Source: an uncultured Pseudoflavonifractor sp. (GTDB taxonomy: Bacteria > Bacillota_A > Clostridia > Oscillospirales > Oscillospiraceae). Taken from it: a stretch of DNA of 18,266 nt. Each line of letters begins with the position of its first letter. The stretch's first letter is position 1. The DNA lies in contig CANPNN010000009.1 of the NCBI GenBank assembly GCA_947575475.1, positions 1 to 18,266 on the forward strand. The letters are read 5' to 3'. Both the position numbers and the translations under genes were made by a program. Shown here one piece after another: positions 3,608 through 18,013 of the stretch. The notes below the pieces were generated by a model that worked only from the letters and a program-made list of their open reading frames with translations, was not told where the DNA came from and did not search any database.

Positions 3608-3748
3608 ATGACCATATTGGAGTTGGCGAAGAAATATTACCCCCGGCTGTGGGGGAAGGAGCGGCTGGCGGCCTTGGTGAGGGCGGAGCGGCTTACCGCC
3701 AAAGAGTACAAGGCCCTCACCGGGGAGGTCTGGCATGATGCGGAATGA
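3608..3748 (+). CDS. xkdX: XkdX-family small phage protein
   Basis: A 46-residue ORF starting MTILELAKKYY. It has the XkdX pattern: an aromatic-rich N-terminal helix (KYYPRLWG), a central LAALVRAERLT, and the end motif YKALTGEVW, comparable to the ITxxqYxxITG seen in PBSX XkdX. The family lies at the junction of fibre and lysis genes in PBSX-like phages, and its biochemical role is unknown. A clear AAAGGAGG is 6 nt upstream of the ATG. The stop overlaps the endolysin start by 14 bp. It is tail-module debris or a retained gene: nothing to its left in this window encodes fibres. Confidence 0.8.
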   Translation: MTILELAKKYYPRLWGKERLAALVRAERLTAKEYKALTGEVWHDAE

Positions 3749-4454
3749 CCCGGTGGAGACCCTTCTGACCCTGGCGCGAAGCCAGCTGGGGGTCCGGGAG
3801 GAGCCACAGGGCAGCGGAAAGGTGAGGTATAACACGGAATACTACGGCCGGGAGGTCCGGGGAAGCTGGTATGCCTGGTGCTGTGTGTTCCAGTGGTGGC
3901 TGTTCCGGCAGGCGGGACTGGGGGAGCTTTTTTATGGGGGAGGCAAGACGGCTTCCTGCACCCAACTGTACCGGTTTTACAGGGGAAAGGGCAGGACGGT
4001 GGACAAAAACCGGCTCCGGCCCGGAGACCTGGTGTTCTTCGTCTTTGACGGGGGGAAGAGCGGGTGCATGAATCACGTGGGGATCTGCGAGAGCGTTGAG
4101 GAGGGCTATGTCACCACCATCGACGGCAACACCGGGGACGATGAGGCCAACGGCGGCGTGGTGGCCCGGAAGAGACGAAGTTTACGGTATGTGGGAGGCG
4201 CGGCGAGGCCTGCCTATGAGGAGGCCGGTCCCTGTGGAGGACAGGATGGAGAGAGGGAGGACGATATGAGGATATTTCAGTATGTGGACCAGGTGCCGCT
4301 ATGGGCCAGGGAGGCGGCCCGGAAGGCCGTGGTGAACGGCTATATCCGGATGGACGCCGCCGGGGCCATGACCCTGTATGAAATGAATCTCCAGCCCCTG
4401 GTGTGGCTGGACCGGGCGGGGCTGCTGGATGCACCCGCCGGGGAGGTGGGCTGA
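3735..4454 (+). CDS. Phage endolysin, CHAP-like amidase/peptidase with C-terminal wall-binding segment
   Basis: A 239-residue lysin. Residues 1-155 form a CHAP-like papain-fold domain, with candidate nucleophile Cys49 in WYAWCCVFQWW, His114 in NHVGI and Asn132 in DGNTG, plus the conserved RPGDLVFF strand. After a polar linker (about 160-177), residues 178-239 form a short helical segment (VPLWAREAARKAV...), similar to the C-terminal repeats of clostridial lysins and likely wall-binding or oligomerising. There is no signal peptide, so release needs the holin encoded next. GGGGAGG lies 6 nt before the ATG. The stop codon overlaps the holin start (TGATG). An in-frame ATG with its own RBS at 4266 could yield the C-terminal part alone. 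Confidence 0.88.
   Translation: MMRNDPVETLLTLARSQLGVREEPQGSGKVRYNTEYYGREVRGSWYAWCCVFQWWLFRQAGLGELFYGGGKTASCTQLYRFYRGKGRTVDKNRLRPGDLVFFVFDGGKSGCMNHVGICESVEEGYVTTIDGNTGDDEANGGVVARKRRSLRYVGGAARPAYEEAGPCGGQDGEREDDMRIFQYVDQVPLWAREAARKAVVNGYIRMDAAGAMTLYEMNLQPLVWLDRAGLLDAPAGEVG
4255..4268 (+). promoter_or_regulatory. Candidate internal ribosome binding site and start within the endolysin gene
   Basis: GGGAGG (4255-4260), a 5-nt spacer and an in-frame ATG (4266-4268, Met178) lie exactly at the boundary between linker and C-terminal domain. Initiation here would give a 62-residue wall-binding fragment. The clostridial lysins CD27L and CTP1L are known to use such internal starts to make a C-terminal partner. 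The site is visible; its use is inference. Confidence 0.5.
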
Positions 4455-4903
4455 TGGGGGAGAGTGTGAGGCGGTTCAAGCTGGTGGTCTCCGCCGCTGC
4501 CGCCGCCCTTACCGCCTTGTGGGGCTGGTTTGGATGGCTCATCGTGGCCTGGGGGGTGTGTATGGCGCTGGATGTGTTCACCGGGATGGCGGCGGGCTGT
4601 GCCAGGGGGGAGTGGAGCTCCCGGATCGCCCGGGAGGGACTTTGGCACAAGACGGGGTGCATTGCCGCCGTGACGGCGGCGGGGGTGCTGGATCTGGCCA
4701 TGGGGCTGCTGGTCCGGCAGCTGCCCCGGGAGGCGCTGCCGTTTGACTATACGGTGTTTCTGTGTCCCCTGACCGTGGTGTGGTATCTGCTTACCGAGGT
4801 GGGCAGCATCCTGGAGAACGTGGGGGAGATGGGAGCCCCCATCCCCGGGTGGCTGCGGCGGGCGGTGGCGGCGCTGCGGGACAAGGTGGAGGAGGGCAGG
4901 TGA
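4454..4903 (+). CDS. Phage holin (toxin secretion/phage lysis holin family)
   Basis: A 149-residue membrane protein. Hydrophobic stretches near residues 10-45 (probably two segments split by GWFGW), about 69-88 and about 95-118 give roughly three to four membrane spans. The motif ALDVFTGM and a C-terminal basic/acidic helix (RRAVAALRDKVEEGR) are typical of the phi-105/Cph1-type phage holin family. Holins permeabilise the membrane so the endolysin can reach the wall. The ATG overlaps the lysin stop (TGATG), with GGGGAGG upstream, so translation is coupled. A longer frame from 4403 is rejected because it would overlap the lysin and adds no membrane segment. Confidence 0.88.
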   Translation: MGESVRRFKLVVSAAAAALTALWGWFGWLIVAWGVCMALDVFTGMAAGCARGEWSSRIAREGLWHKTGCIAAVTAAGVLDLAMGLLVRQLPREALPFDYTVFLCPLTVVWYLLTEVGSILENVGEMGAPIPGWLRRAVAALRDKVEEGR

Positions 4904-4910: not shown

Positions 4911-4940
4911 GAGATGGAGATGGAGATAGAGATGGAGATG
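4911..4940 (+). repeat. Hexanucleotide tandem repeat GAGATG x5 at a gene start
   Basis: Five consecutive 6-bp units (the third is GAGATA) cover the start region of the putative small terminase and encode alternating Glu-Met/Ile. Slippage in 6-bp steps would keep frame and only change the number of N-terminal residues and of alternative start codons. Confidence 0.85.
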
Positions 4941-5234
4941 AGGAGCCGGAAGGCGGTGCTGCGGGAGATCCAAAAGCTGGCCCGGAGCAGGGCCAACGAC
5001 GCGGTGAAGCTGGCCTTTATGAGCGGGGAGGAGCTGGGGGGACTGGACAAGCTGGACCTTTCGGCGGTGACCGACTTTAAGCGCAACAGCAACGGCACGG
5101 TGGAGCTGCGGTTCGTGGACAGGCTGGCGGCGCTGCAGTGGCTATTGGAGAGAGTGGAGGAGGACCCCCGGGCGGAGAGCCTGCGCCGGGCCATTGAGGG
5201 GGGCGCGGAGCGGCTGCGGGAGAAAGGGGACTGA
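4914..5234 (+). CDS. Putative terminase small subunit, short form
   Basis: A 106-residue protein directly upstream of the large terminase, with 0 bp between stop and start. The segment from about residue 46 to 80 (LDLSAVTDFKRNSNGTVELRFVDRLAALQWLL) resembles the conserved C-terminal half of terminase small subunits, where a strand-turn-strand is followed by a DKLKALELL-type helix. The usual N-terminal DNA-binding helix-turn-helix is not recognisable; only a basic helix (MRSRKAVLREIQKLARSRAND) precedes it. The call rests on position plus this resemblance. The start is uncertain: ATGs at 4914, 4920, 4932 and 4938 are all in frame because the 5' end is a GAGATG hexanucleotide repeat. Confidence 0.6.
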   Translation: MEMEIEMEMRSRKAVLREIQKLARSRANDAVKLAFMSGEELGGLDKLDLSAVTDFKRNSNGTVELRFVDRLAALQWLLERVEEDPRAESLRRAIEGGAERLREKGD

Positions 5235-6482
5235 ATGGAGTTTTCCGACAAGCAGAGAAGGGTGCTGACCTGGTGGTGCGACGCTTCGGAGTGGAGGGAT
5301 AGGGAGGCCATCATCTGCGACGGGGCGGTGCGCAGCGGAAAGACCCTGTGTTTGGGATTGTCCTTTTTCCTGTGGGCCATGGGGAAGTTTGACGGGGAGC
5401 AGTTCGCTTTGTGCGCCCGGAGCATGGAGACGGTGCGGCGGAACCTGCTCCACGCCCTGACGCCCAAGCTGAGAGGGCTGGGGATGGCGGTGGAGGAGAG
5501 GGTGAGCCGGGGCTTTCTGCGGGTGCGCTTCGGAGGGCGGGAGAACATCTTCTGGCTCTTCGGCGGCAAGGACGAGAGCAGCGCGGGGAGCATCCAGGGC
5601 ATCACATTGGCGGGGGCGCTGATGGACGAGGTGACGCTGATGCCCCGGTCCTTTGTGGAGCAGACGGCGGCCCGGTGCTCGGTGGAGGGGGCCAGGCTGT
5701 GGTTCTCCTGCAATCCGGAGGGGCCGGAGCACTGGTTTTACAGGGAGTGGGTGTGCAGGGCGGAGGAGAGACGGGCGCTGCGGGTCCACTTTCTGATGAC
5801 GGACAATCCGGGCATCAGCCCGGAGACGGTGGAGAGATACGGGCGGTACTTCCAGGGGATGTTTTACCGCCGGTTCGTGCTGGGGGAGTGGGTCCCGGCG
5901 GAGGGGCGGGTCTATGACTTCTTTACCGAGGACATGGCCCGGCCGCTCCCCCAGGGGGAGATGGAGGAATGGCGCATCTCCTGCGACTACGGGACGGTGA
6001 ACCCCACCTCCATGGGGCTGTGGGGGCGCCAGGGGGACACGTGGTACCGGATGAAGGAGTACTACTATGACTCCCAGAGGACGGGGATGCAGAAGACCGA
6101 CTATGAGTATGTCAAGGAGCTGGAGAGGCTGGCGGCGGGAAGGCACATCCGGAGAGTGGTGGTGGACTCCTCGGCCGCCAGCTTTATAGAGGCCCTGCGG
6201 CGGGAGGGCTGGCCGGTGATGGAGGCGGACCGGGAGGTGCTGACGGGGATCCGGGTGACGGCGGATATGCTGCGCCGGGGACAGCTTGTCATATGCAGGC
6301 CCTGCGTGGACGCCATCCGGGAGTTTTCCCTGTACTGCTGGGACCGGGAGGCCCAGGGGGACAGGGTGATCAAACGGTTTGACCACGCCATGGACGATAT
6401 CCGGTATTTTGCCATGAGTCTGCGGGATACCGGGAGCTATATGGGGGCCTTTGCGGTGGAGAGGCCCCAGTGGGGAATGTGA
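5235..6482 (+). CDS. terL: Phage terminase large subunit
   Basis: A 415-residue DNA-packaging motor and nuclease, PBSX XtmB-like. The ATPase domain has Walker A at 30-37 (GAVRSGKT), Walker B at 127-132 (GALMDE) and a coupling motif at 158-161 (SCNP). The nuclease domain has the expected acidic triad: Asp251 in SCDYGT, Asp311 in VVVDSSA and Asp387/388 in DHAMDDIRYF. All key residues are present, so packaging activity is plausible. It would use ATP to drive DNA through the portal and cut headful ends. The ATG follows the small-subunit stop immediately, with GGGAGAAAGGGG as ribosome site. It shows no truncation. Confidence 0.95.
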   Translation: MEFSDKQRRVLTWWCDASEWRDREAIICDGAVRSGKTLCLGLSFFLWAMGKFDGEQFALCARSMETVRRNLLHALTPKLRGLGMAVEERVSRGFLRVRFGGRENIFWLFGGKDESSAGSIQGITLAGALMDEVTLMPRSFVEQTAARCSVEGARLWFSCNPEGPEHWFYREWVCRAEERRALRVHFLMTDNPGISPETVERYGRYFQGMFYRRFVLGEWVPAEGRVYDFFTEDMARPLPQGEMEEWRISCDYGTVNPTSMGLWGRQGDTWYRMKEYYYDSQRTGMQKTDYEYVKELERLAAGRHIRRVVVDSSAASFIEALRREGWPVMEADREVLTGIRVTADMLRRGQLVICRPCVDAIREFSLYCWDREAQGDRVIKRFDHAMDDIRYFAMSLRDTGSYMGAFAVERPQWGM

Positions 6483-6594: not shown

Positions 6595-7731
6595 ATGAAA
6601 TGGTTGGAGAAAAAGAGGGCTTCCGCCCTGACGGTCCAGACCCGGGAGGGGGAGAGGCACCCCTTTGGGGAGCTGGGGGGATATGTGCCCCTCCGGTCCG
6701 GGGAGAGGGGGCTTTACCGGGCCATCCGGGAGGCGCTGCCCATCATTGACGCCGCGGTGAGCAAGCTGGTGCGGCTGAGCGGCGGGGTGAGGGTCACGGC
6801 CCCTGAGGGGCAGGAGGAGCTGGAGGAGTTTCTCCGCTCGGTGGATGTGGGCCGGGGACAGAGGGGGATCCAGGCTTTTCTGGACAGCTATCTGGACTCC
6901 ATGCTGGTCTGCGGACAGGGGGTGGGGGAGATGGTGGTGGACTGGAAGAGAGGAGAGATCGCCGCCCTTCTCTGCGCCGACCCGGGCGCCATCGAGCTGA
7001 AGGAGGGGGAGAGCCCCCTGGACTTTACCGTGTGCGCCCGAAGGCGGGACGGGACGGTGGAGGCGCTGCCCCGGCAGGAGCTGATCCTGTTTACCCCCTT
7101 TCAGCCTGAGACGGACAACCCCTATGGGACGTCTTTGCTGCGGAGCATGCCCTTTCTGGCGGGGATATTGCTGAAGATCTATCAGACCACCGGGGTCAAC
7201 TGGGAGCGGCTGGGAAACGCCCGGTTCGCGGTGACCTATAAGCCGGGGGCGGGGGAGGGACCCTGGGCCCGGGAGCGGGGGGAGGAGATCGCGCGGGAGT
7301 GGTCGGCGGCCATGCAGGCGGGGAGGAACGGGAACCTCCGGGATTTTGTGGCGGTGGGGGATGTGGACATCAAGGTCATCGGGGCGGACAACCAGGTGCT
7401 GGACGGGGAGGCGCCGGTGCGGCAGATCCTGGAGCAGCTGGTGGCCAAGACGGGCATACCCCCCTTTATGCTGGGGCTTTCCTGGTCGGCCACCGAGCGG
7501 ATGAGCGCCCAGCAGGCCGATATGCTGACCAGCGAGGTCACTGCCATCCGCCGGACGCTGACCCCTGTGGTGGAGCGGATCTGCCGGATGTGGCTGCGGC
7601 TCCACGGATATGCCGGGAAGGCCCGGGTGGAGTGGGAGGATATCAACTTGCAGGATCTGGTGGAGGAAGCGCGGGCGGAGCTGTATCACGAGCAGGCGGA
7701 AGCGCTGCGGGAGGAAAGGAAGGAGAGCTGA
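6595..7731 (+). CDS. Phage portal protein
   Basis: A 378-residue portal, rather short for the family. It follows terminase and precedes the protease, as expected. Characteristic features are an N-terminal region ending in the IREALPIIDAAVSKLVRL helix, an internal DPGAIEL/FTPF strand region and, in the C-terminal half, the KTGIPPFMLGLSWSATERMSAQQADMLTSEV segment typical of portal stem and clip regions. Twelve copies would form the ring at one capsid vertex, bind TerL during packaging and later the connector proteins. GGGAGG lies 7 nt before the ATG. The 112-bp gap upstream holds no convincing gene. Confidence 0.9.
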   Translation: MKWLEKKRASALTVQTREGERHPFGELGGYVPLRSGERGLYRAIREALPIIDAAVSKLVRLSGGVRVTAPEGQEELEEFLRSVDVGRGQRGIQAFLDSYLDSMLVCGQGVGEMVVDWKRGEIAALLCADPGAIELKEGESPLDFTVCARRRDGTVEALPRQELILFTPFQPETDNPYGTSLLRSMPFLAGILLKIYQTTGVNWERLGNARFAVTYKPGAGEGPWARERGEEIAREWSAAMQAGRNGNLRDFVAVGDVDIKVIGADNQVLDGEAPVRQILEQLVAKTGIPPFMLGLSWSATERMSAQQADMLTSEVTAIRRTLTPVVERICRMWLRLHGYAGKARVEWEDINLQDLVEEARAELYHEQAEALREERKES

Positions 7732-8727: not shown

Positions 8728-9072
8728 ATGAAAAACAAGGTTTCGTTTGAGGGGATCGGCGAGGTGGTGGCCACCTTCTATGCCGGCGAGGGCGTGAAGG
8801 CGGGGCAGGTGGTGAAGATCGGCGGAGATTCCTCGGTGGCCCCCTGCGCCGCTGGGGAGTGTTTTTGCGGAGTGGCGACCTCGGTAAAGGCGGGCTGCGC
8901 CGGTGTGCAGGTGGAGGGCTTTGCCGCCGTCTCCTGCGGGGACAGCTCGGTGACGGTGGGCAAGGTGGCGCTGGCGGCCGACGGAAACGGCGGCGTGAAA
9001 AAGACCGCCGGAGGCCAAGAGTACTGGGTGGTGGCCGACGACGGGGCCGGGACCATCACCATCAAAATGTGA
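8728..9072 (+). CDS. Putative capsid decoration protein
   Basis: A 114-residue, small-residue-rich, probably all-beta protein (repeated GEGVKAGQVVKIGGD-, AAGECFCGVAT- and VTVGKVALAAD-type strands). It lies immediately before the major capsid gene, where decoration or cement proteins (lambda gpD/DUF2190-like) are encoded. These bind mature capsids and stabilise them against internal DNA pressure. The ribosome site AAAGGAGG is strong, as expected for a high-copy structural protein. Identification rests on position, size and strand pattern, not on a definite motif. Confidence 0.65.
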   Translation: MKNKVSFEGIGEVVATFYAGEGVKAGQVVKIGGDSSVAPCAAGECFCGVATSVKAGCAGVQVEGFAAVSCGDSSVTVGKVALAADGNGGVKKTAGGQEYWVVADDGAGTITIKM

Positions 9073-9086
9073 GGAGGAGTGGGAGT

Positions 9087-10118
9087 ATGAGCTATCATTT
9101 TGACGATCTGAAGCTGGACAAGGGGATGTACAGCGTGGCGGGGAAGAGCTTTACCGCCGTGCTGGAGAAGGAGGATCCCTCGGAGAAGTACAAGGGCACG
9201 GCGCTGGAGGGACTGGATGCGTTTCAGCGGCAGCTCAAGCGGTTCGACATCAAGGTGAGGGGGGCGGGCAGCGACCCGGTGGAGAAGTTTTTCCAGTCCT
9301 CCCAGGCGGCGGTGCTGTTCCCCGAGTACATTGCCCGCAGCGTGCGCCAGGGCATGGAGGAGGCGGACCTGCTGGGCGCTATCACCGCCACGGTGACCAA
9401 CATCGACGGGATGGATTACCGCTCCATCACCTCTATCCCCGACAGGGACAGGAAGGAGCTCCGCCGGGTGGAGGAGGGGGCCCAGCTTCCCCAGACCCAG
9501 GTGAAGACCCAGGAGAATCTGGTGAAGCTCCACAAGCGGGGACGGATGCTGGTGTGTTCCTATGAGGCGGTGCGGTATCAGAAGCTGGACCTGTTTTCCG
9601 TGACATTGCGGCAGATCGGCGCACACATCAGCCGTCAGCTGCTGGAGGACGCCATCGATGTGCTGGAGAACGGGGACGGAAACGGCAACCCCGCCCAGAA
9701 GCTGAAGGTGGGCACCGCTCCCATCGGGGGTACCGCCGGGAAGCTGAGTTATGGGGAGCTGGTGGACTTCTGGGCCCAGTTTGAGCCCTACGAGATGAAT
9801 ACCCTGCTGGTGAGCGGGGATGTGATGCTCCAGATGCTCAAGATGGAGGAGCTGCAGAACCCCATGACCGGACTCAACTTCCAGGGGACGGGAAAGCTGA
9901 CCTCGCCTTTGGGAGCGGATCTGCTGCGGACCTCCGCCCTGGGGAGCGGGAAGCTGATCGGGCTGGACAAGCGGTATGCCTTGGAGATGGTCAAGGCCAG
10001 CGACGTGCTGGTGGAGTACGATAAGCTTATCGACCGGCAGATGGAGAGGGCGGCCATCAGCTCGGTGGCCGGGTTTGCCAAGGTATTTCCTGAGGCCGGC
10101 AAGGTGCTGACGGTGTGA
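9087..10118 (+). CDS. Major capsid protein, HK97 fold
   Basis: A 343-residue capsid subunit, XkdG-like in position. An acidic, helical N-terminal arm (about 1-60) precedes the shell domain. Residues about 75-130 (LFPEYIARSVRQGMEEADLLGAI...) resemble the start of the HK97 core in many Firmicutes phages, and RRVEEGAQLPQTQV, a long helix near 185-210 and the terminal MERAAISSVAGFAKVFPEA also fit. The start at 9087 follows GAGGAGGAGTGGGAGT; an open frame to the left (from 8859) only shadows the decoration gene. A strong terminator-like hairpin follows the stop. Confidence 0.88.
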   Translation: MSYHFDDLKLDKGMYSVAGKSFTAVLEKEDPSEKYKGTALEGLDAFQRQLKRFDIKVRGAGSDPVEKFFQSSQAAVLFPEYIARSVRQGMEEADLLGAITATVTNIDGMDYRSITSIPDRDRKELRRVEEGAQLPQTQVKTQENLVKLHKRGRMLVCSYEAVRYQKLDLFSVTLRQIGAHISRQLLEDAIDVLENGDGNGNPAQKLKVGTAPIGGTAGKLSYGELVDFWAQFEPYEMNTLLVSGDVMLQMLKMEELQNPMTGLNFQGTGKLTSPLGADLLRTSALGSGKLIGLDKRYALEMVKASDVLVEYDKLIDRQMERAAISSVAGFAKVFPEAGKVLTV

Positions 10119-10148: not shown

Positions 10149-10166
10149 GATGCGGGAGGTGGAAGT

Positions 10167-10508: not shown

Positions 10509-10828
10509 TGGATGAGAGAGTATGGAAGGATATTTTGGAGCGGTACGGACAGAGGGTGAGCCTCTGGCGGGAGAGCGGGGAGAGGGAGATAAAGGCTTTT
10601 TTTCAGCCGGTCCGGGAGAGGGCCGCTGGGGAGGAGCCCACCCCTCTGGGGGTGGCACCCAGGGGGAAATACCTCTATCTGGGACCGGCGGAGGAGAGTC
10701 TGGAGAATGTAGAGAGACTGGGCTGGAGGGGCCGGAGCTTCCATATCCTGCGGTGGAGGGAGGTCCCGGCGGGGGAGGGGATCGCCTACCTGTGGGGGCT
10801 TTTGGAGGAGATGGATGGGAGCGGATAG
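10508..10828 (+). CDS. Head closure/stopper protein (XkdH-like)
   Basis: A 106-residue protein with a helical start (MDERVWKDILERYGQRVSLW) and then a strand-rich body (KAFFQPVRE, GKYLYLGPAE, FHILRWREV). This is the pattern of SPP1 gp16/HK97 gp7-type stoppers and PBSX XkdH, which close the connector after packaging. It is translationally coupled to the adaptor (TGATG overlap). Inferred from gene order and strand pattern. Confidence 0.6.
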   Translation: MDERVWKDILERYGQRVSLWRESGEREIKAFFQPVRERAAGEEPTPLGVAPRGKYLYLGPAEESLENVERLGWRGRSFHILRWREVPAGEGIAYLWGLLEEMDGSG

Positions 10829-10835
10829 GGCCTGG

Positions 10836-10860
10836 GTAGGCGGATGATATCCGCCCCTAC
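10836..10860. repeat. REP-like palindrome 1
   Basis: CGGAT (10841-10845) pairs with ATCCG (10849-10853), and the outer GTAGG/CCTAC (10836-10840/10856-10860) pair beyond a 2-nt bulge. Its reverse complement, extended two bases, starts ATGTAGGGGCGGAT. A second palindrome at 12461-12488 starts ATGTAAGGGC in the same orientation. Short palindromes of this type are common dispersed repeats in gut Clostridia. It fills most of the 51-bp gap between two connector genes. Confidence 0.6.
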
Positions 10861-10879
10861 ATGGGGGAGGAGAGAGTGA

Positions 10880-11368
10880 GTGAAGGGGTTACAGGAACTG
10901 CGCGGCGCATTGGCCGGGTTTTTGAGGGAGCATGGGCTGGAGGCGGTGACCGCCTGGGGGCCGGAACGGCGGCCGCGGGCGGGGGGACCGGTGGCGGCGG
11001 TGTCTCTGCGGGGATTTGAGAGCGGACCGCCGGGATTCCAGGATTATCTGGGAGAGCGGTACGACGAGGCCAAGGGCGGCTGGGAGGAACTTTACGGAAA
11101 GCGGGTGGAGCTGACCTTTGGGCTGGATGTGTACGCCGCCTCCGCCCAGGGGGTGCAGGCGGGGTTGGACATTTTGCAGGAGGCCCTGGGAGAGAAAGGG
11201 CCGGCGGGGCTTTGCCCGGTGGGGCTTACAGTGGGAGAGACCGCCTTTCAGAGCGGAAGTGGACGGTATTGCTGTCCGGTCCAGGCGAGATTCTGGGTCT
11301 GGGCGGTGGCGGTGAGCAGGGAGGACGGGGCCTTCCTGGACTTTGAAGTGAGAGGAGAGAGGGTATGA
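10880..11368 (+). CDS. Tail completion/terminator protein (XkdI/XkdJ region)
   Basis: A 162-residue protein with a GTG start behind GGGGGAGGAGAG. It has the alpha/beta layout of tail terminators: an N-terminal helix (LQELRGALAGFLREHG), a central strand EELYGKRVELTFGLDVYA, the helix AGLDILQEALGE and a closing strand RYCCPVQARFWVWAVAV. Such proteins cap the tail tube and join it to the connector. It directly precedes the sheath gene and overlaps it by 4 bp (ATGA). Position is the main evidence. Confidence 0.6.
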   Translation: MKGLQELRGALAGFLREHGLEAVTAWGPERRPRAGGPVAAVSLRGFESGPPGFQDYLGERYDEAKGGWEELYGKRVELTFGLDVYAASAQGVQAGLDILQEALGEKGPAGLCPVGLTVGETAFQSGSGRYCCPVQARFWVWAVAVSREDGAFLDFEVRGERV

Positions 11369-12390
11369 GCGTGAATGTGACGGAGCATCAGAGGCCGGGA
11401 GTGTACTCGGTATATGACGCGTCCTCGGTGGTCAGCGGCCGGCCTGGGGGCGGAAACGCCGGGGCGGCGGCGGTGTGCCCAAAGGGGACGGCGGGGCAGG
11501 TCTATGAGCTGGCAAGCCCTGAACAGGCCGAGGCCGCCTTTGGGGCGGGGGAGACCCTGACGGAGCTGGTGAGGCTGCTGCTTCAAAATGGGGCGGCCAA
11601 GGCCTACGCCGTTCCGGCGGCCGATGAGGAGGGCTATGAGGCGGCATTCGCCGCGTTGGAGAAGGTGGAGGATATTGCCGTGGTGGTCTGCGGCTCCACG
11701 GAGTTGACGGTGCAGCAGAGGCTGCGGGACAGCGTGAAGCGGGCCTCGGAAAACCGCCGGGAGCGGCTGGCGGTGGCGGGCGGCGCCGAGGGCGAGACGG
11801 CGGAGGAGCTGGTGGCCCGGGCGGGGGAGCTGAACTGCGAGCGGGCGGTGCTGGTCCCCGGCGGGGTCCGGGCCGCGGCCGCGGCAGCGGGGGCCATGGC
11901 GGGAGAGACCGACCCGGCGGTTCCCCTGGGGGGCGCGGAGCTTTCCGGGCTTACCGCTTTGGAGGAGGACTGGAACGACAAGGAGATCGACAGCTTGATC
12001 TTGGGGGGAGTGACCCCCCTGGAGCGGACCGGCGGGGCGGTGAGCGTGGTCCGGGGGATCACCACCCGGACCAGGACGGGGAACGCGAAGGACGCTACCT
12101 GGCGGGAGTTGACCACCATCCGGGTGGTGGACGATGTGATCCCGGCTCTGCGAAACGCCCTGCGCGCCAAATTCAGCCGGGCCAAGAACACCGCCCAGGG
12201 CCGGGAGGCGGTGCGCAGCCAGGTCATTGTGGAATTGGAGCAGAAGGTCCGGAAGGAGATCATCACCGGGTATGACGGCGTGACGGTAAACGCTCTGGAG
12301 AGCGACCCTTCCGTGTGTCTGGTGGAGTTTCGCTTCCGTGTGGCCCACGGGCTCAACCAGATCTGGGTGGCGGCCCATATCACGGTGTGA
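11365..12390 (+). CDS. xkdK: Contractile tail sheath protein (XkdK-like, compact)
   Basis: A 341-residue sheath subunit, clearly shorter than PBSX XkdK (about 466). It shows the N-terminal RPGVYSVYDASS arm, the sheath core (ITTRTRTGNAKDATWRELTTIRVVDDVIPALRNALRAKF) and the C-terminal VVEFRF/HGLNQIWVAAHITV-type strand that donates to neighbouring subunits. Contraction of the sheath would drive the tube through a target envelope. The missing length is probably an outer insertion domain, leaving the contractile core. The start overlaps the previous stop (ATGA), with GAGAGG upstream. Presence of a sheath makes the particle myovirus-like. Confidence 0.88.
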   Translation: MSVNVTEHQRPGVYSVYDASSVVSGRPGGGNAGAAAVCPKGTAGQVYELASPEQAEAAFGAGETLTELVRLLLQNGAAKAYAVPAADEEGYEAAFAALEKVEDIAVVVCGSTELTVQQRLRDSVKRASENRRERLAVAGGAEGETAEELVARAGELNCERAVLVPGGVRAAAAAAGAMAGETDPAVPLGGAELSGLTALEEDWNDKEIDSLILGGVTPLERTGGAVSVVRGITTRTRTGNAKDATWRELTTIRVVDDVIPALRNALRAKFSRAKNTAQGREAVRSQVIVELEQKVRKEIITGYDGVTVNALESDPSVCLVEFRFRVAHGLNQIWVAAHITV

Positions 12391-12460
12391 GAGATGGGGC
12401 GGATCTGATGGGGACGGAGCCTTGCCCGTAAAGGGCGCGGCCCATCCCTAAGCGGCAGAG

Positions 12461-12488
12461 GGGCCGGTGGGGACACCGGCCCTTACAT
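12461..12488. repeat. REP-like palindrome 2 in the sheath-tube gap
   Basis: GGGCCGGTG (12461-12469) pairs perfectly with CACCGGCCC (12474-12482) around GGGA; TTACAT follows. In reverse complement it begins ATGTAAGGGCCGGTG, sharing ATGTARGGGC with the copy at 10836-10860. The 127-bp gap between sheath and tube contains only this and a small GCCC/GGGC hairpin near 12424-12435; no gene was found. Confidence 0.6.
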
Positions 12489-12517
12489 CTGATAGAGAGC
12501 AAGGAGGAGGGAGAGAT

Positions 12518-12907
12518 ATGATCGCATCGCAGTTTCCCACCAGCGCGGATATCTATCTGGAGCTGAACGGGAAGAAGATGGCGGTGGTGCAGGGGTACTC
12601 CTGCTCCACCACAAAGTCAAGCTCGGTGGTGGAGGCCTTTGGGGAGAGCGAGCCGGTGGCCACCATTCCGGGGCCGAAGCAGCACACCATCGTGCTGACG
12701 CGGCTCTATGCCACCGAGGAGGCCGCCCGCAGCGGCATGAATTTCCATGACCTGGAGGACTTTAACCTGGTCATCTGTAAGCCTGACCGGCGGATCATTT
12801 ACTCCGGGTGCCAGTGGGAGAGCCTCAGCGAGACGGGAAAGCTGGGGGACATGGTGCTGGAGAAGGTCACCATCGTGGCCGCCCGGCGAGTGGAGAGCGC
12901 CCTGTGA
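12518..12907 (+). CDS. xkdM: Tail tube protein (XkdM-like)
   Basis: A 129-residue protein, close to the 147 of PBSX XkdM. Features are an N-terminal SADIYLELNGKKMAVVQGYSCSTT, a middle PKQHTIVLTRLYATEEA and a C-terminal RIIYSGCQWESLSETGKLGDMVLEKVTIVAARR strand pair, typical of the phage tube beta-sandwich. Stacked hexamers form the inner channel of the tail. The ATG at 12518 has AAGGAGGAGG upstream, one of the strongest sites in the cluster. The stop overlaps the GTG of the tail chaperone (GTGA). Confidence 0.88.
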   Translation: MIASQFPTSADIYLELNGKKMAVVQGYSCSTTKSSSVVEAFGESEPVATIPGPKQHTIVLTRLYATEEAARSGMNFHDLEDFNLVICKPDRRIIYSGCQWESLSETGKLGDMVLEKVTIVAARRVESAL

Positions 12908-13323
12908 GGGGCGGTCTGCTTGGGCTTCCCTGGTGGAGAGATCTGGACGGAGGGCTGAGACTGCGGCTGCTGTCCGCCCGGGAGGAGCTGGAGTGCCGGC
13001 GGGAGGGGGAGGAGCTGGCGGAGAGGGAGGGGGACGTCGCCCTCTGCGCCAACGCCTGCCTGTTGGCCCGGGCACTCTGGAAGGACGGGTATCCGCTCTA
13101 TGAGAGTGGGGCGGAGGCCCTGGAGAAGATGACGGCGGGACAGATCGCCCATTTTGCGGGGCTGTGGGCGGAGTTTGACCGGGAGTGCGACCCGGGGCCC
13201 TGGGATGGGGAGGCGGCGGATGAGGCAAAAAAAGACTGGAGCACACGCCTTATGAGCGCCTTCAGTGGCGTGTGCTCAAGGCTTTTGGCGCTCTTCCGAC
13301 GGAGGAGCGGGCGAGGGCGATGA
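12904..13323 (+). CDS. xkdN: Tail assembly chaperone, zero-frame product (XkdN-like)
   Basis: A 139-residue protein starting at a GTG that overlaps the tube stop, with GGAGAG about 8 nt upstream. It is helical (LRLRLLSAREELECRREGEELAEREG, ALCANACLLARALW, KMTAGQIAHFAGLWAEFDRE), as in gpG/XkdN-type chaperones that hold the tape measure before tube assembly. After Lys110 the frame becomes Arg-rich (RLLALFRRRSGRGR) and ends. This is the unshifted product; a programmed -1 frameshift at 13227-13233 makes a longer form. Confidence 0.82.
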   Translation: MRGGLLGLPWWRDLDGGLRLRLLSAREELECRREGEELAEREGDVALCANACLLARALWKDGYPLYESGAEALEKMTAGQIAHFAGLWAEFDRECDPGPWDGEAADEAKKDWSTRLMSAFSGVCSRLLALFRRRSGRGR

Positions 13324-13520
13324 CCCATCGGGACTACCTTTGGTGCGCAGTGAATATGGCCCTGGACGGGGAGGAGGAGCTTGCCCGGCTGTGTCCGGCC
13401 TGCCGGGCGGAGGCGGAGGAGGACCGGTGCCCGGTGTGCGGGGCGGCGGTGAATGATTGCGGGGAGAACCGAGGGTTTGATATGGAGCGGTTTTTGTCAT
13501 TGGGAGGTGATGGGGAGTGA
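12904..13520 (+). CDS. Tail assembly chaperone, -1 frameshift product (GT-type) with zinc ribbon
   Basis: Joining 12904-13233 in the zero frame to 13233-13520 in the -1 frame gives a 205-residue protein. The shifted part starts RLEHTPYERLQWRVLKAFG and continues TEERARAMTHRDYLWCAVNMALDG, a helical region normal for the T domain of such chaperones. It is followed by CPACRAEAEEDRCPVCG, a CxxC-x8-CxxC zinc-ribbon-like motif, then a short acidic tail. In lambda the GT form bridges the tape measure and tube protein. The -1 ORF has no good start of its own for most of its length, which supports production by frameshifting. Confidence 0.82.
13227..13277 (+). other. Programmed -1 ribosomal frameshift signal
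   Basis: The heptamer A AAA AAA (13227-13233) sits in the correct zero-frame register (GCA AAA AAA GAC), so both tRNAs can re-pair after slipping by one. A 5-nt spacer (13234-13238) follows. Then GAGCACACGCC (13239-13249) pairs perfectly with GGCGTGTGCTC (13267-13277), an 11-bp stem with a 17-nt loop. Slippery site, spacing and stem all match known -1 frameshift signals in tail chaperone genes. Confidence 0.9.
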
Positions 13521-14110
13521 GGAATTTTTTGGAGGAGGCCTTGGAGCAGGAGCGGGATGAGAATGAGGACATGGAGAGGGAGATCCCGTTTGAATTTCAT
13601 TCTGCTGGAGGGAAGGCCCTGGGGGCCTCTTGTGCGCAAAAGAGGCTCCCAGACCATCAGAAAGCACCAGAGGGAGAGAGTTTCGACTCTCGTCTCCCCC
13701 GGCTCCCCACTCTCAAGGACCGGGGGAAGGGGTCTGCAGGCGCCCTCCCGCTGGGCCGTTCTACGGGCTTTTCTAACGTAAGGTCATTTGCCCCGGCGGT
13801 TTATGACCTTACGCCGCCGGGGGGTGATAGGCGGGGTGCTCTGACGGAACGACTGCAGGCCCCAAGGGCAGGGGGCGAAGGGCAGGGGCAAGGGCGAGGA
13901 ATTGTGGGCCGCGCGGCTGAAATTCCCCTGATGACCGCTTTGCGGCGGGCTGAGAGGACGACCGCTTTTGTGCAGGGGAGTGGGAGAAGGCTGACGGTCA
14001 GCCTGCCGGAGAGCGTTGGGGGAGAATGCGCGGGGCTGAGCGTGGAGGAGCTGGACCGGGCGGTGGAGCGGGACGCCCGGCGGTATGACGGTGGGAGCGT
14101 GTTTTATTGA
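13517..14110 (+). CDS. Hypothetical 197-residue ORF in the tape-measure position
   Basis: GTG start overlapping the chaperone stop (GTGA). This is where the tape measure gene normally lies, but at 197 residues it is far shorter than PBSX XkdO (over 1,300) and has no hydrophobic or long coiled-coil region. The ends look protein-like: an acidic N-terminus (MRNFLEEALEQERDENEDME) and a C-terminus from about residue 136 (PLMTALRRAERTTAFV... to VERDARRYDGGSVFY). Residues about 35-135 are Gly/Pro/Arg-rich, low in structure, and are encoded by DNA full of inverted repeats (13619-13825) and a G-run cluster. Possibilities are a degenerate tape measure, a small conserved phage protein carrying an in-frame insertion, or a miniature replacement. 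I do not recognise a family. Confidence 0.45.
   Translation: MRNFLEEALEQERDENEDMEREIPFEFHSAGGKALGASCAQKRLPDHQKAPEGESFDSRLPRLPTLKDRGKGSAGALPLGRSTGFSNVRSFAPAVYDLTPPGGDRRGALTERLQAPRAGGEGQGQGRGIVGRAAEIPLMTALRRAERTTAFVQGSGRRLTVSLPESVGGECAGLSVEELDRAVERDARRYDGGSVFY
13619..13825. other. Cluster of inverted repeats inside the 197-aa ORF
   Basis: Successive hairpins: 13619-13631 with 13640-13652 (13 bp, one G-U); 13676-13681 with 13686-13691 around a TTCG tetraloop; CCCCCGG 13696-13702 with CCGGGGG 13720-13726; GTAAGGTCAT 13778-13787 with ATGACCTTAC 13803-13812; and CCCCGGCG 13791-13798 with CGCCGGGG 13815-13822, which competes with or interlocks with the previous stem. Such density is not seen elsewhere in the cluster and suggests an inserted structured element or RNA. 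Confidence 0.6.
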
Positions 14111-14122
14111 GGAGGGGAAGAG

Positions 14123-14707
14123 ATGGCTTTGGCGCCTATGAGGTATAAGGATTTCACCTGGCCCCACAACCCCCGGACCTATACCATCGAGTACAGGCGG
14201 GAGATGGGGGTCCACAAGGTGCCCTTTGGACGGTATCATCTGCAGGATCTGGGACCTACCCGGCGGGTCATGAAGGGGGAGGGGGAGTTCGTGGGGGAGG
14301 ACGCCTACGAGACCTTCAAGAAGCTGGCCGCCGTATTCTACAGTGACGGGCCGGGGGCGTTGGTGCATCCCGTGTGGCAGGGCTGCAACGCTTACTTTGT
14401 GGAGCTGTCTTTGAGCCAGGAGCCGCGGAGGGACTATGTGCGGTATACCTTTACCTTTTGGGAGAGCTATGACGGGTATCAGGCGTATGCGCGGAAGGCG
14501 GAGGGGGGCGGCGCGTCCGGGCGGCCGCTTCCCGCGGAGACCGGAGGCGGCGCCGAAGGGGAGGTCTGGCACACGGTGGTCCGGGGGGACAACCTGTGGA
14601 GTATCGCGAGGAGGTACGGCGTGGAGCTGACGGGGGTCATCGCCCTGAACCCCCAGATCCGCAATCCCAACCTCATCTATCCGGGAGAGAGGGTGCGGGT
14701 GAGATGA
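14123..14707 (+). CDS. xkdP: LysM-containing tail protein (XkdP-like)
   Basis: A 194-residue protein. Residues 1-120 (FTWPHNPRTYTIEYRREMGVHKVPFG...) match the N-terminal region of PBSX XkdP and related tail proteins. After a Gly/Pro linker (about 128-145), residues 148-194 form one LysM domain (HTVVRGDNLWSIARRYGV ... NPNLIYPGERVRV). In contractile systems this protein sits between tube and baseplate and its LysM domain helps position the hub. GAGGAGGGG lies 5 nt before the ATG. The stop overlaps the hub start (ATGA). Confidence 0.87.
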   Translation: MALAPMRYKDFTWPHNPRTYTIEYRREMGVHKVPFGRYHLQDLGPTRRVMKGEGEFVGEDAYETFKKLAAVFYSDGPGALVHPVWQGCNAYFVELSLSQEPRRDYVRYTFTFWESYDGYQAYARKAEGGGASGRPLPAETGGGAEGEVWHTVVRGDNLWSIARRYGVELTGVIALNPQIRNPNLIYPGERVRVR

Positions 14708-15636
14708 CGGGATATCTGCTGACGGCGGCGGGGGAGAGGATAGACCTGCCCCCCTTTACCGGATGGAGGCTCCGGCGGACGGGAGGCGTGCCCTGTGACA
14801 GCTTTGAGGGGGCCTGCCCCTGGGACGGAGGGATAGAGCCTGCCTTTGACGCCGCCTGCCGGCTCGTTGTGAACGAGGAGGGGGCGCGGCGGTTTACCGG
14901 GGTGCTGGACGAGTATGAGCTTTCCTGGGATGGCGCAGGGGGCGTTTTGTCCCTGTCGGGGCGGGGGCTGGCGGCGCTGCTGCTGGATAACGAGGCCCTG
15001 GGACAGGATTACCAGGCGGCCACCCTGGCCGATATTTTGAGGGATCATGTGGAGCCCTACGCCATTCCGGTGGGGCGGGTAGGGCGGTTGGAGCCGGCAC
15101 CGGGGTTTCAGGTGAGCTCGGGGAGCAGCGAGTGGCAGGTGCTGTATGATTTTGCCCGGTATCACAATGGGGTGCAGCCCCGGTTCGACGTTTGGGGAAG
15201 CCTGATCGTAGATCCGGACCGGAGGGGACAGACGGTGATGGTGGACGACAGGACGGGGATCACCGCGGTCCGGTTCCGGGACAAGAGGTTCGGGGTGGAG
15301 TCGGAGGTGCTGGTCCAGGATCGGGGAAGTCTGACCCCTCAACGGGTGGTGAATGGGGAATTCCTGGCCCAGGGGGGACGGCGGCGGAAGGTATACACTA
15401 TGCCGGGAAGGAGCGCCTATCAGGCCATGCGGTACTCTGGGCGGTTCCAGCTGGACAGGTCTGCAGAGGAGAGGTACCGGGTGGAGCTGACGGTGCCGGG
15501 GAGCTATTTCTGCGAGCCGGGAGACCGGGTGGAGGTAAAGCTGACCAGACCTGCCCTCCGGGGGAGTTGGACGGCGCTGGAGACGGAGGCGGCACTGGAC
15601 GAAACGGGCTGCCGGGTGAAGGTGACCTTGGGGTGA
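14704..15636 (+). CDS. xkdQ: Baseplate hub protein (XkdQ-like, gp27/gpD type)
   Basis: A 310-residue protein that overlaps the LysM gene (ATGA). It has the layout of hub proteins: an initial strand-rich domain (YLLTAAGERIDLPPF...), VNEEGARRFTGVLDEYELSWDGAGGVLSLSGRGLAALLLDN, a central segment SSGSSEWQVLYDFARYHNGVQPRFDVWGSLIV typical of the late-control-D fold, and a final beta domain (RYRVELTVPGSYFCEPGDRVEV). The hub trimer joins the tube to the spike. An upstream in-frame ATG at 14596 is rejected because it lies inside the LysM gene. Confidence 0.85.
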   Translation: MTGYLLTAAGERIDLPPFTGWRLRRTGGVPCDSFEGACPWDGGIEPAFDAACRLVVNEEGARRFTGVLDEYELSWDGAGGVLSLSGRGLAALLLDNEALGQDYQAATLADILRDHVEPYAIPVGRVGRLEPAPGFQVSSGSSEWQVLYDFARYHNGVQPRFDVWGSLIVDPDRRGQTVMVDDRTGITAVRFRDKRFGVESEVLVQDRGSLTPQRVVNGEFLAQGGRRRKVYTMPGRSAYQAMRYSGRFQLDRSAEERYRVELTVPGSYFCEPGDRVEVKLTRPALRGSWTALETEAALDETGCRVKVTLG

Positions 15637-15649
15637 GAGGAGTGTTGGG

Positions 15650-16051
15650 ATGTTTTTGAGCGGAACGGGGCGGCGGCGGAGCGGGGCCTCTGCCCTTACA
15701 GGGCCGGTCACGGTGCCGGGGACTATGGCGGGGGCCTATGTGGAGGGGGAGAGGCGGGAGATGAGCGTCTTTGCCCCCGGAGGTTATCACTGGGTCCCGG
15801 GCCTGGGGGACGAGGTGCTGGTACTGAAGGCCGGAGAACAGGGGGAGCGGCCCTGTGTGGTGGGATGCGTCATGGGGGAGGCGGGGCTAAGACCCGGGGA
15901 GGTGCTGATCTCCGCCGGAAGGGCGGCCATTCTGCTTTCCCCGGAGGGGGCGGTGAGAGTGACGGGAAATCTCAGCGTCAACGGGACTTCGGTGGGACCG
16001 CCCCTCCCGCCGCTGGAGGAGGATGGCGATGAGACGGGAGGGGAGAGCTGA
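15650..16051 (+). CDS. Baseplate spike protein (gpV/gp5 type)
   Basis: A 133-residue protein with an OB-fold-like N-terminal half (TGPVTVPGTMAGAYV..., YHWVPGLGDEVLVLKAG...RPCVVGCVMG) and a short repetitive beta tail (VLISAGRAAILLSPEGAVRVTGNLSVNGTSVG), as in compact membrane-piercing spikes of P2/PBSX-like tails. It ends with an acidic Pro-rich tail. The spike caps the tube and pierces the target membrane on sheath contraction. AGAGGAG lies 7 nt before the ATG. The stop overlaps the next start (TGATG). Confidence 0.75.
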   Translation: MFLSGTGRRRSGASALTGPVTVPGTMAGAYVEGERREMSVFAPGGYHWVPGLGDEVLVLKAGEQGERPCVVGCVMGEAGLRPGEVLISAGRAAILLSPEGAVRVTGNLSVNGTSVGPPLPPLEEDGDETGGES

Positions 16052-16404
16052 TGGCCCTTATTTTGCGGGAAGGAGACTATGTGCCAGACGGACGGGGAGG
16101 CTTTCAACAGGTCTCGGGGGCGGAGGAGGTTTTGGAGCGCTCGCTCTGGAAGCTCGCCGTTCGCCGGGGGAGCTTTCCCTTTCTGCCCGGGCTTGGAAGC
16201 CGGCTCCACCTGCTGGGGCGGGCCCCGGACAGAGAGAGGGAGGCCCTGGCGGGACAGTATGTGGCGGAGGCCCTTGCCGATGAGGATGTGACGGTGACGG
16301 GGACGGAGCTGACCCGGGAGGCGGGAGGAGCGGTGCTGACGGTATGGCTGGATTGGCGGGGGGAGGAGTTGCATTTGACGGTGAAGGTGGGGGAAATGGA
16401 ATGA
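16051..16404 (+). CDS. xkdS: Baseplate wedge protein (XkdS-like, gp25/gpW type)
   Basis: A 117-residue protein. The segment LWKLAVRRGSFPFLPGLGSRLHLLGRAP is the typical lysozyme-like wedge core, and LTVWLDWRGEELHLTV forms the closing strands. In PBSX the DUF2634/gp25-type XkdS lies before XkdT, as here. The protein links sheath to baseplate and starts sheath assembly. Coupled at both ends: TGATG with the spike gene and ATGA with the baseplate J gene. Confidence 0.78.
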   Translation: MALILREGDYVPDGRGGFQQVSGAEEVLERSLWKLAVRRGSFPFLPGLGSRLHLLGRAPDREREALAGQYVAEALADEDVTVTGTELTREAGGAVLTVWLDWRGEELHLTVKVGEME

Positions 16405-17456
16405 AAACGGTGGAGGAGATCTATGACGAGATGCTGGCCGTCTTCCGGCGGGAGACGGGGGCGGAGGCCTCGGCGGTCAGCGACCTCTCAGTGAAGCTGT
16501 ACGCTGTGGCGGCCCAGGTCTATGGGCTGTACACCCAGGCCCAGTGGCTGTCCCGGCAGTGCTTTCCCCAAACGGCCCAGGGGGAGTGGCTGGACCGCCA
16601 TGCGGCTCTGCGGGGGCTGGAGCGGAGAAAGGCGGTGAGGGCGGAGGGAGCCATCCGCTTTTCGGTGGATATGCCTGCCGGGGCTGATCTTGTCATCCCG
16701 GCGGGGACGGTATGCGCCACGGCGGGGCTATGCAGGTTTGAAACGGTGGAGGAGGCGGTCCTGCCGGCGGGACAGACCTCTGTGGAGGTCCCGGCCCAGG
16801 CGGTGGAGCCGGGAAGCGCGGGAAACGTGCCGGCGGGCAGTATCCTGGTGATGACTGCGCCGCCGGTGGGCATCGGGCGGTGCGTGAACTCCCTGGCTTT
16901 TTTGGGAGGGGCCGACGAGGAGGAGGACGAGGGACTTCGGAAACGGGTGCTGGAGACATACAAACGGATGCCCAACGGAGCCAACGCCGCCTTTTATGAG
17001 CAAGGGGCCTTGTCCTTTGACCAGGTGGCGGCCTGCACAGTGATCCCCCGGCCCCGGGGTACGGGAACGGTGGACGTGGTGGTGGCCGGGCAGGGGGGAC
17101 TGCCCGACGCGGAGCTGTTGGAGGAGCTGAGAGCCTACTTTGAGGAGAAGCGGGAGATCGCTGTGGAGGTGGCTGTGAAGGCCCCTGAGGGGAAAACGGT
17201 GGACGTGGAGGTCACTGCTACGGCAAAGGAAGGGGCGGACCCGGAGCGGGTCCGGGAGGATGTGGAAAACGCCCTCCGGGAATATTTCTCCGGGGAGCGT
17301 TTGAGCGAGGATATTCTGGTGGCACGGCTGAATCAGATCGTATTTTCTGTCAGAGGAGTGGCCAACTGTGCGATCACCGCCCCCGCCGCGGATGTAGCGG
17401 TGGAGCGGGGGGAGCTGCCCCTGCTGGGGGACCTGAGGGTGGAGGTGAGGACATGA
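16401..17456 (+). CDS. xkdT: Baseplate J-like protein (XkdT)
   Basis: A 351-residue wedge protein, near the usual length. It begins MKTVEEIYDEMLAVFRRETG and has SDLSVKLYAVAAQVYGLYTQAQWLSRQCFPQTAQGEWLDRHAALRGLERRKA, a hallmark of the baseplate J family, then IPAGTVCAT, the AVEPGSAGNVPAGSI motif and the EEDEGLRKRVLETYKRMPNGANAAFYEQ stretch. It builds the ring that surrounds the hub and recruits fibre-linking proteins. The start at 16401 overlaps the wedge gene stop (ATGA); the frame further upstream is discarded. Confidence 0.93.
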   Translation: MKTVEEIYDEMLAVFRRETGAEASAVSDLSVKLYAVAAQVYGLYTQAQWLSRQCFPQTAQGEWLDRHAALRGLERRKAVRAEGAIRFSVDMPAGADLVIPAGTVCATAGLCRFETVEEAVLPAGQTSVEVPAQAVEPGSAGNVPAGSILVMTAPPVGIGRCVNSLAFLGGADEEEDEGLRKRVLETYKRMPNGANAAFYEQGALSFDQVAACTVIPRPRGTGTVDVVVAGQGGLPDAELLEELRAYFEEKREIAVEVAVKAPEGKTVDVEVTATAKEGADPERVREDVENALREYFSGERLSEDILVARLNQIVFSVRGVANCAITAPAADVAVERGELPLLGDLRVEVRT

Positions 17457-18013
17457 GCCACGCGGAGCGGATGTGGGAGCTGCTGGCGCCCTTGGGACCC
17501 TACCGCCGCCAAGGGGCCTATACCGCCGGGGAGCTGGCGGGAGAGGGCCGGGCCCTGGACGGGGTGGCGGCGGCCCTGGAGGATCTGGAGCGGGAGGCTA
17601 TGCTGGATACGGCGGAGGGGGAGGGGTTAGAGAAGGTGGAGGAGCTGCTGGCAAGCCGGCCGGTGGCCCGGACCCTGCCGGCCCGGAGGGCGGCGTTGTC
17701 CGCCCTCCTTCGCATCGGAGGAGACAGCTTTACCCTGGACGCCGTCAACGACAATCTGAAGGGCTGCGGGCTCAACGCCGCCGTCAGCGAGACGGCCGAG
17801 CCGGGAGTGGTGGAGGTCCGATTTCCCGACGTGCCCGGGATCCCGGAGGGATTTGGACAGCTGAGGAGGATCATAGAGGAGATCTTGCCCTGCCATTTGA
17901 AGGTGAACTATGTGTACTGGTACATCACATGGGCCATGATGGAGGAACGGTTCCCGACCTGGGGGGACGTGGAGGGGCATAGCTGGGGAGAACTGGAAAA
18001 AATGGTGAAATAA
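17453..18013 (+). CDS. xkdU: XkdU-like baseplate protein (DUF2313)
   Basis: A 186-residue protein with typical XkdU features: RMWELLAPLGPYRRQGAYTAGELAGEGRALDGVAAALEDLEREAMLDTAEGEGLEKVEELL at the start, LRIGGDSFTLDAVNDNLKGCGL in the middle and EVRFPDVPGIPEGFGQLRRIIEEILPCHLKVNYVYWYITW near the end. P2 gpI-like proteins of this kind finish the baseplate and connect to tail fibres. It overlaps the XkdT stop (ATGA). It is the last gene of the cluster: no fibre (XkdV/W) gene follows, and a T-box leader begins within 60 bp. Confidence 0.92.
   Translation: MSHAERMWELLAPLGPYRRQGAYTAGELAGEGRALDGVAAALEDLEREAMLDTAEGEGLEKVEELLASRPVARTLPARRAALSALLRIGGDSFTLDAVNDNLKGCGLNAAVSETAEPGVVEVRFPDVPGIPEGFGQLRRIIEEILPCHLKVNYVYWYITWAMMEERFPTWGDVEGHSWGELEKMVK

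Follow-up and report, generated by a model that had tools for sequence, protein, structure and literature searches.

A small protein stands in the tape-measure slot of a PBSX-like contractile-tail gene cluster of Oscillospiraceae

Long tails and contractile tails are commonly held to require a tape measure protein. In lambda-type systems the tape measure is the known partner of the frameshifted tail assembly chaperone (gpG/gpGT), and the gene order of PBSX is terminase, portal, capsid, sheath, tube, chaperone, a slot, and then XkdP, XkdQ, XkdS, XkdT, and XkdU. PBSX, from Bacillus subtilis, is a GTA-like element described as packaging dispersed 13.4-kb fragments of host DNA (PMC12946183). The tape measure of RcGTA from Rhodobacter capsulatus has ~216 residues for five tube hexamers as reported (PMC7296036), and its small terminase is described as being without a DNA-binding domain, a loss proposed as a hallmark of GTA terminases (PMC6854486). 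In the contractile diffocin, C-terminal helices of the tape measure have been resolved in the baseplate region (PMC11329794), and part of the tape measure of phage phiCD508 is reported to touch the needle tip (PMC11948020).

For gut bacteria, Borodovich et al. (2026) report GTA-like packaging in Ruminococcaceae and Oscillospiraceae; for the latter, their account gives Onthomonas (3 of 25 events) and assigns no operon for MAG 925_bin.12 (PMC12946183). The same account describes the Faecalibacterium elements FpGTA I and II as podovirus-like, with a small terminase without obvious DNA-binding domain and with 40-nm capsids lacking identifiable tails, which "may be very short"; its main text is silent on sheath and tape measure, and our comparison with these elements is by description only (PMC12946183). 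Our searches of the literature on contractile elements, on this host group, and on Bacillota turned up no account of a contractile element that lacks a tape measure. Two reports considered as such a precedent (PMC8026635 and PMC9865981) appear from their accounts to concern other cases.

We analyzed an 18,266-nucleotide stretch of DNA from an uncultured Pseudoflavonifractor sp. (contig CANPNN010000009.1, positions 1 to 18,266; hereafter the window), which ends 253 nt past an XkdU-like gene. Endolysin and holin genes are followed by small and large terminase, portal, capsid, and neck genes, and these by the tail genes: sheath, tube, −1-frameshift chaperone, a 197-amino acid ORF, LysM/XkdP, hub, spike, and XkdS-, XkdT-, and XkdU-like genes. 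The features are as follows.

3735..4454, + strand: CHAP-domain endolysin (Pfam CHAP, E 1e-10; PHROG endolysin)
4403..4903, + strand: holin (Phage_holin_4_1, E 7e-30; scanned part 4445-4900)
4914..5234, + strand: small terminase without the N-terminal DNA-binding half, 106 amino acids (Terminase_2 positions 61-128 only; E 6e-4, under the curated cut-off)
5235..6482, + strand: large terminase (phrog_2, E 8e-43)
6595..7731, + strand: portal protein (phrog_30703, E 6e-155)
9072..10118 (start approximate), + strand: major capsid protein (Phage_capsid_4, E 2e-17)
10880-11368: putative tail terminator by gene order, in the place expected for that gene (phrog_25177, function unknown)
11365..12390, + strand: tail sheath (Pfam Phage_sheath_1 and _1C; phrog_279)
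12521..12907, + strand: tail tube, XkdM-like, placed after the sheath (phrog_27038, an unnamed family, E 2e-54; dN/dS 0.028)
12904..13323, + strand: tail assembly chaperone, frame-0 product, a conserved ORF before the −1 frame, named by position (no Pfam or PHROG match)
13227..13233, + strand: A7 slippery site for the −1 frameshift, a heptamer conserved in relatives
13272..13520, + strand: −1-frame extension of the chaperone with a zinc-ribbon-like part, conserved in relatives (weak zinc-ribbon matches, below cut-off)
13517..14110, + strand: 197-amino acid ORF with an N-terminal helix, a disordered spacer, and a conserved C-terminal helix and motif; proposed to be a vestigial tape measure
14123..14707, + strand: LysM/XkdP-like tail-tube initiator or hub protein (LysM, DNA_circ_N)
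14704..15636, + strand: baseplate hub, XkdQ-like (phrog_177, E 1e-26)
15650..16051, + strand: baseplate spike-like OB-fold protein (Phage_base_V, E 0.003, below cut-off)
16051..16404, + strand: baseplate protein, XkdS-like (phrog_975, E 4e-6)
16401..17456, + strand: baseplate wedge, XkdT/gpJ-like (Baseplate_J, E 3e-61)
17453..18013, + strand: XkdU-like tail protein (conserved in loci L022, L049, L076, and L101)

The cluster shares its gene order with PBSX and PBSX-like contractile prophages (xkd genes): sheath, tube, chaperone, and baseplate genes stand in PBSX order, and a full-length tape measure (XkdO) is absent. Unlike PBSX, the cluster has no long tape measure in the slot, and the small terminase is truncated in the window and some relatives. 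The original prediction, that no tape measure lies between the chaperone and LysM/XkdP, was borne out: the slot between the chaperone stop (13520) and the XkdP start (14123) holds a single 197-amino acid ORF, with 4 nt of overlap at the chaperone stop and a spacing of 12 nt to XkdP. RcGTA, as described, offers a likeness in its very short tape measure and its small terminase without a DNA-binding domain; it differs in being of another lineage, in having a 113-residue repeat-bearing helix in its tape measure, and in that its description mentions no contractile sheath. Among solved phage structures, a LysM-type chain named "tail tube initiator" (PDB 9g8s_T) resembles XkdP; the match is to the LysM-side part of the window protein (E 8e-4). 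The diffocin tape measure is described as full-length and spanning a particle of 32 layers, whereas here the slot protein has ~200 mostly disordered residues.

The arrangement recurs across the family. A search with XkdP gave 21 viral-contig loci, two of them weak. In genomes of species, an XkdP alignment gave 538 confirmed stretches; the best 80 of these 538 entered the analysis (some stretches outside the best 80 may be LysM-only), and 20 lower-scoring family loci were examined besides. Loci occur in Flavonifractor, Pseudoflavonifractor, Intestinimonas, Lawsonibacter, Evtepia, Oscillibacter, and Dysosmobacter, and in many Oscillospiraceae/Clostridiales; L076 belongs to the commensal isolate Evtepia gabavorous KLE1738. 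Within the XkdP-matched set of 101 loci (100 relatives and the window, the best 80 of 538 included), the tube-to-XkdP interval spans 500–1621 nt in the 92 loci where it is measurable. An ORF with a shared C-terminal motif (…LDRAVERDARRYDGGF.LY), scored as R[DE][AS]RR[YF] followed by a few last residues, stands just upstream of XkdP in 97 of these 101 loci, which are not independent counts because some represent one contig or species seen twice. As for the misses, L019 and L020 come from a partial contig or match in LysM alone, the small gene of L043 carries a variant motif, and in L091 (1–521) the half kilobase available upstream is repetitive and lacks the motif. In 48 of 75 measurable loci, the window included, the start of the small gene lies 4 nt inside the chaperone stop. 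This overlap, together with the conserved C-terminus, argues that the 197-amino acid ORF is not a chance reading frame, and the premise that a tape measure is obligatory at this position fails for this family.

The fetched same-lineage loci with a measurable interval include no relative with a full tape measure in place. A scan with the tube protein for a close relative bearing a tape measure returned 12 loci, all of the same family, and these were entered in the classification below. Protein searches yielded 30 relatives of the small protein (125–305 amino acids, none named) and an independent full-length copy, 94% identical, in a public assembly (P0001), so the window layout is not due to assembly collapse. 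Phage records contained an XkdP-protein match in 15 cases, mostly covered in four, all four being unannotated gut-metagenome records. The C-terminal piece of the small protein had four weak matches among phage records, the best two being the two closest gut-metagenome records (E 0.008 and ~1).

The small protein has the consensus M[TI]DYLExLL... at its start and LDRAVxRDARRYDGGFxLY at its end; the stretch between them is variable, with much Ala, Glu, Gly, Arg, and Pro. Across 63 small proteins with a well-placed start, the length is 102–329 amino acids (median 197, SD 41), and none has a membrane-like window, the 197-amino acid ORF included. For comparison, 120 tape measures are 668–793 amino acids long (SD 17), and 63 of the 120 have a membrane-like window; as all are the best homologs of one host-prophage query, their narrow spread is a loose yardstick only. 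Where two loci share at least 90% identity in XkdP, the lengths of their small proteins lie a median of 3 residues apart and 61 at most (13 pairs); with 80–90% identity in XkdP this median is 33 (28 pairs). The AlphaFold model (41 rows), which is weak (mean pLDDT 59.9), has helices at residues 4–17, 136–154, and 176–190 and a disordered middle, without a coiled-coil ruler. This low-confidence model and the membrane-window scan agree with the original prediction of an ORF lacking a coiled coil or membrane segment. The 197-amino acid ORF has no match in Pfam or PHROG, nor does the family among PDB sequences, and an hhalign comparison of the C-termini of 81 small proteins with 32 tape measures gave a probability of 1.4%, so that homology is not significant. 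The small protein thus has the position of a tape measure, between the chaperone and the XkdP/hub genes, with neither sequence homology to tape measures nor a long α-helical or coiled-coil form. By sequence and fold it falls formally outside the tape-measure family; what we propose is that it acts as a residual tape measure would.

Two features of the DNA of the variable middle may be recorded here. A palindrome with 17-nt arms and no loop lies at 13619-13652, and interleaved palindromes with 11- and 9-nt arms lie at 13777-13822. They give the impression of in-frame repeat insertions, and no copies were found in the other fetched loci or in phages.

Selection on the small gene is uneven. Values of dN/dS were obtained from 25 close pairs, taken from 135 candidates in descending order of XkdP identity with each locus used at most twice. 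The median is 0.52 for the whole small gene (25 pairs), 0.18 for its last 25 codons (24 pairs), and 0.54 for the remainder (25 pairs); single extremes (up to 1.4 for a whole small gene and 1.75 for one C-terminus) are of the kind that small numbers of changes would produce. Medians elsewhere are 0.03 for the tube (23 pairs), 0.07 for the capsid (15 pairs), 0.13 for XkdP (25 pairs), and 0.15 for XkdT (24 pairs). The C-terminus, tube, capsid, and baseplate are under purifying selection, and the middle of the small protein drifts. The frameshift is likewise kept. Both chaperone parts were recognized in 71 loci, with 62 in −1 relation and nine fused in frame, and a slippery heptamer lies within the overlap in all 62 of the −1-frame pairs (A7 in 61). 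The chaperone machinery is therefore maintained despite there being no long tape measure for it to serve. A non-functional tail, one of the options offered originally, is disfavored by the strong purifying selection on tube, capsid, and baseplate and by the retained frameshift signal. We also consider it very improbable that the window is a decaying prophage or an assembly collapse in which a tape measure was lost recently. One fetched family member (L176) is visibly broken or misassembled, but the layout recurs in relatives from many species, selection is strong, and the ORF exists in an independent copy. Decay, deletion, or assembly error of the window copy is contradicted by the relatives with the same layout.

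The disordered, relaxed middle and the wide range of lengths also suit the main rival reading, that the small protein is an assembly adaptor, lumen plug, or carried peptide and not a ruler. Its N- and C-terminal helices would then bind chaperone and hub, and tail length would be set by the terminator or by a baseplate that templates one or two rings. We hold this to be unlikely, though to be taken seriously: the protein occupies the exact slot of the tape measure and travels with a frameshifted chaperone whose partner elsewhere is the tape measure.

Full-length tape measures do exist in some of the hosts. The Pfam family TMP_3 matches in seven of 10 host genomes and PhageMin_Tail in five, which could favor a ruler supplied in trans from elsewhere in the host genome. 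The tape measures that we viewed in context belong to separate prophages of textbook layout with their own XkdP-type gene, most clearly in L119 and L120. The L120 prophage has sheath (4510-5592), tube (5589-6017), chaperone (6030-6449), a 698-amino acid tape measure (6644-8740), and XkdP (8733-9395), and in L119 a 700-amino acid tape measure directly precedes its XkdP. In L118 and L121, tape measures of 714 and 773 amino acids lie near a LysM-type XkdP match. Three of the 10 host genomes have no match to TMP_3, PhageMin_Tail, or TMP_2, and a direct query with a tape-measure protein, run without a positive control, was negative in the same three. A ruler in trans is therefore not general, and we give this suggestion of the original prediction very little credence.

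The cluster looks like a GTA/PBSX-type element of Oscillospiraceae. Exactly one full-length XkdP occurs in each of 10 host genomes, and 107 of 300 genomes drawn from the family were positive with one XkdP match each, a fraction lowered by incomplete genomes. Distances for six element proteins follow those of host RecA (Mantel r 0.60–0.81, P 1e-4, 26–27 genomes, without a mobile-prophage control); 30 genomes had been chosen, of which one had no RecA match and two a partial RecA. Downstream flanks fall into one single-linkage group in 44 of 71 loci and otherwise into small groups or singletons, and a neighboring hydroxyacid dehydrogenase or pyruvate carboxylase gene was detected directly in 17 of 72, counting the locus that supplied the query. 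The locus in the genome of L023 is also flanked by the window's left neighbors (PHP, SH3/NlpC), endolysin, and holin. IMG/VR lists L001–L018 (contigs of 4–18 kb) as viruses, although the family appears to be chromosomal and passed on vertically. No integrase or replication module was recognized by eye in the ORF lists of the window, L022, L049, L076, and L101 or in upstream flanks; L126 has one serine recombinase ~9.5 kb upstream of the terminase.

Vertical inheritance in single copy and purifying selection on the structural genes are features of GTAs that the family has. The third, a small terminase without DNA-binding domain, holds for the window and not family-wide. The small terminase matches only the C-terminal half of Terminase_2 in the window and three of five short relatives, the other two having no match. 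L080, L086, L102, and L103 keep it in full length, and from the first two it follows that the domain loss is not family-wide. In the window and L023 the lysis genes precede the terminase, and in 13 other loci they come after XkdU (five endolysin and eight holin matches). Near L022, L049, L076, and L101, where by eye the cluster ends after XkdU, neither lysis genes nor a tail-fiber gene after XkdU were recognized. In L044 the gene next to XkdU (10932-11390) encodes a small carbohydrate-binding protein (CBM_5_12), which suggests that a receptor-binding part may exist in some loci.

A graded series of tail layouts exists among the relatives: loci with the small gene, loci with a chaperone-like protein and related motif, a locus with sheath and tube and neither of these, and loci with a tube and no sheath. 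The classification covered 138 loci, of which 14 were unusable and 108 informative (the best 80 of 538 and the 20 lower-scoring loci included); four were classified without a tube match in range (L102, L103, L172, and L174), and 12, all with the motif ORF, had upstream sequence too short to judge the sheath. The strict-motif ORF is present in 96 of 101 sheath-bearing loci (the best 80 of 538 included) and in none of seven sheathless loci (Fisher 3e-8, with rows that share ancestry and uncorrected for relatedness). Among the sheath-bearing loci, L043 and L170 have variant motifs, and L167 and L168 have one 102-amino acid protein that ends in EREMRCRD.GFI.Y and whose start, by eye, resembles the chaperone extension. 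L169 has sheath and tube, and its tube runs straight into XkdP with neither chaperone nor small gene. The XkdP frame of L169 is open and ends with the N-terminal domain, LysM being absent; with a hub gene next in line, it does not look broken. In all seven sheathless loci the tube-to-XkdP gap is at most 172 nt. The gut-metagenome records L102 and L103 also have a sheathless layout; with their full small terminase they need not be FpGTA.

Other departures were seen in single loci. In L172, a 117-amino acid ORF with a partial sheath match (5266-5619), perhaps a remnant sheath, lies upstream of a tube-size ORF and XkdP. XkdP ends after the N-terminal domain, without LysM, in L169, L175, L177, L178, and L179. 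In L175 a host gene that by eye is TypA/BipA-like comes after XkdP. L175 and L177–L179 gave no hub match, and their baseplate may be gone or elsewhere. In L176 the capsid gene runs into a partial XkdP, a deletion or misassembly in that genome. L104 has a head-only cluster (17412-23515; terminases, portal, capsid, and neck-size ORFs) with no tail genes following, located in the chromosome near genes that by eye are ribosomal and rnf-like host genes.

From L169, a short tail apparently can do without the small protein, and that sheath and tube can exist without it counts against the reading that we prefer. The same locus, with no gene at all between tube and XkdP, would fit a tail without length control, in which sheath and tube polymerize until subunits limit and the small protein is incidental. 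In type VI systems, length is limited by subunit supply. We regard a tail without length control as improbable for the present family, which has a gene in the expected place of the tail terminator and keeps the motif ORF, with its constrained C-terminus, in nearly all sheath-bearing loci.

Our preferred reading, to which we assign a somewhat better than balanced probability, is a PBSX/GTA-like, chromosomal, vertically inherited contractile-tail element whose tape measure has been reduced to a vestige of ~200 residues; conservation, position, selection, co-inheritance, and graded loss are what we observed in its favor. A vestigial tape measure is the likeliest explanation because the slot, the chaperone, and the hub-side conservation are kept and the rod is gone. 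The small slot protein suggests very short tails. In the mechanism that we propose, the chaperone pair would load the small protein, and its conserved C-terminal helix (LDRAVERDARRYDGG) would dock in the baseplate hub/initiator (XkdP/XkdQ), as tape-measure C-termini do elsewhere. The disordered middle may serve as a loosely measured spacer and as a plug in the tube lumen; the tube would grow only a few rings before being capped, and the finished particle would have a very short contractile tail, with host DNA as its cargo. With ~43 residues per tube hexamer as described for RcGTA and ~26 per layer as described for diffocin, 197 amino acids might correspond to 4–8 rings (26–43 residues per ring), which is a guess because the middle is predicted to be disordered and lengths vary widely in the family. 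The range of 102–329 amino acids, and the one of 13 closest pairs that lies 61 residues apart, speak against a strict ruler. The miniature ruler and the extremely short tail, two of the four options raised originally, fit best, and neither is proven.

We tentatively suggest, at somewhat less than even confidence, that a vertically inherited lineage of contractile-tailed GTAs dismantled its tape measure stepwise, from a long ruler through the layouts of the graded series to a tube without a sheath. In that case, one to a few rings could make a working contractile tail with no tape measure, and within one host family tailed particles could grade continuously from myovirus-like into podovirus-like form. 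The graded series, in which the slot shrinks and empties while sheath and tube genes persist, makes the minimum contractile tail directly testable. The cluster may also be a candidate for the GTA-like DNA packaging measured in Oscillospiraceae, for which the account of Borodovich et al. assigns no operon (PMC12946183), and, if the two prove related, its proposed very short tail might explain why no tail was visible on a gut GTA particle.
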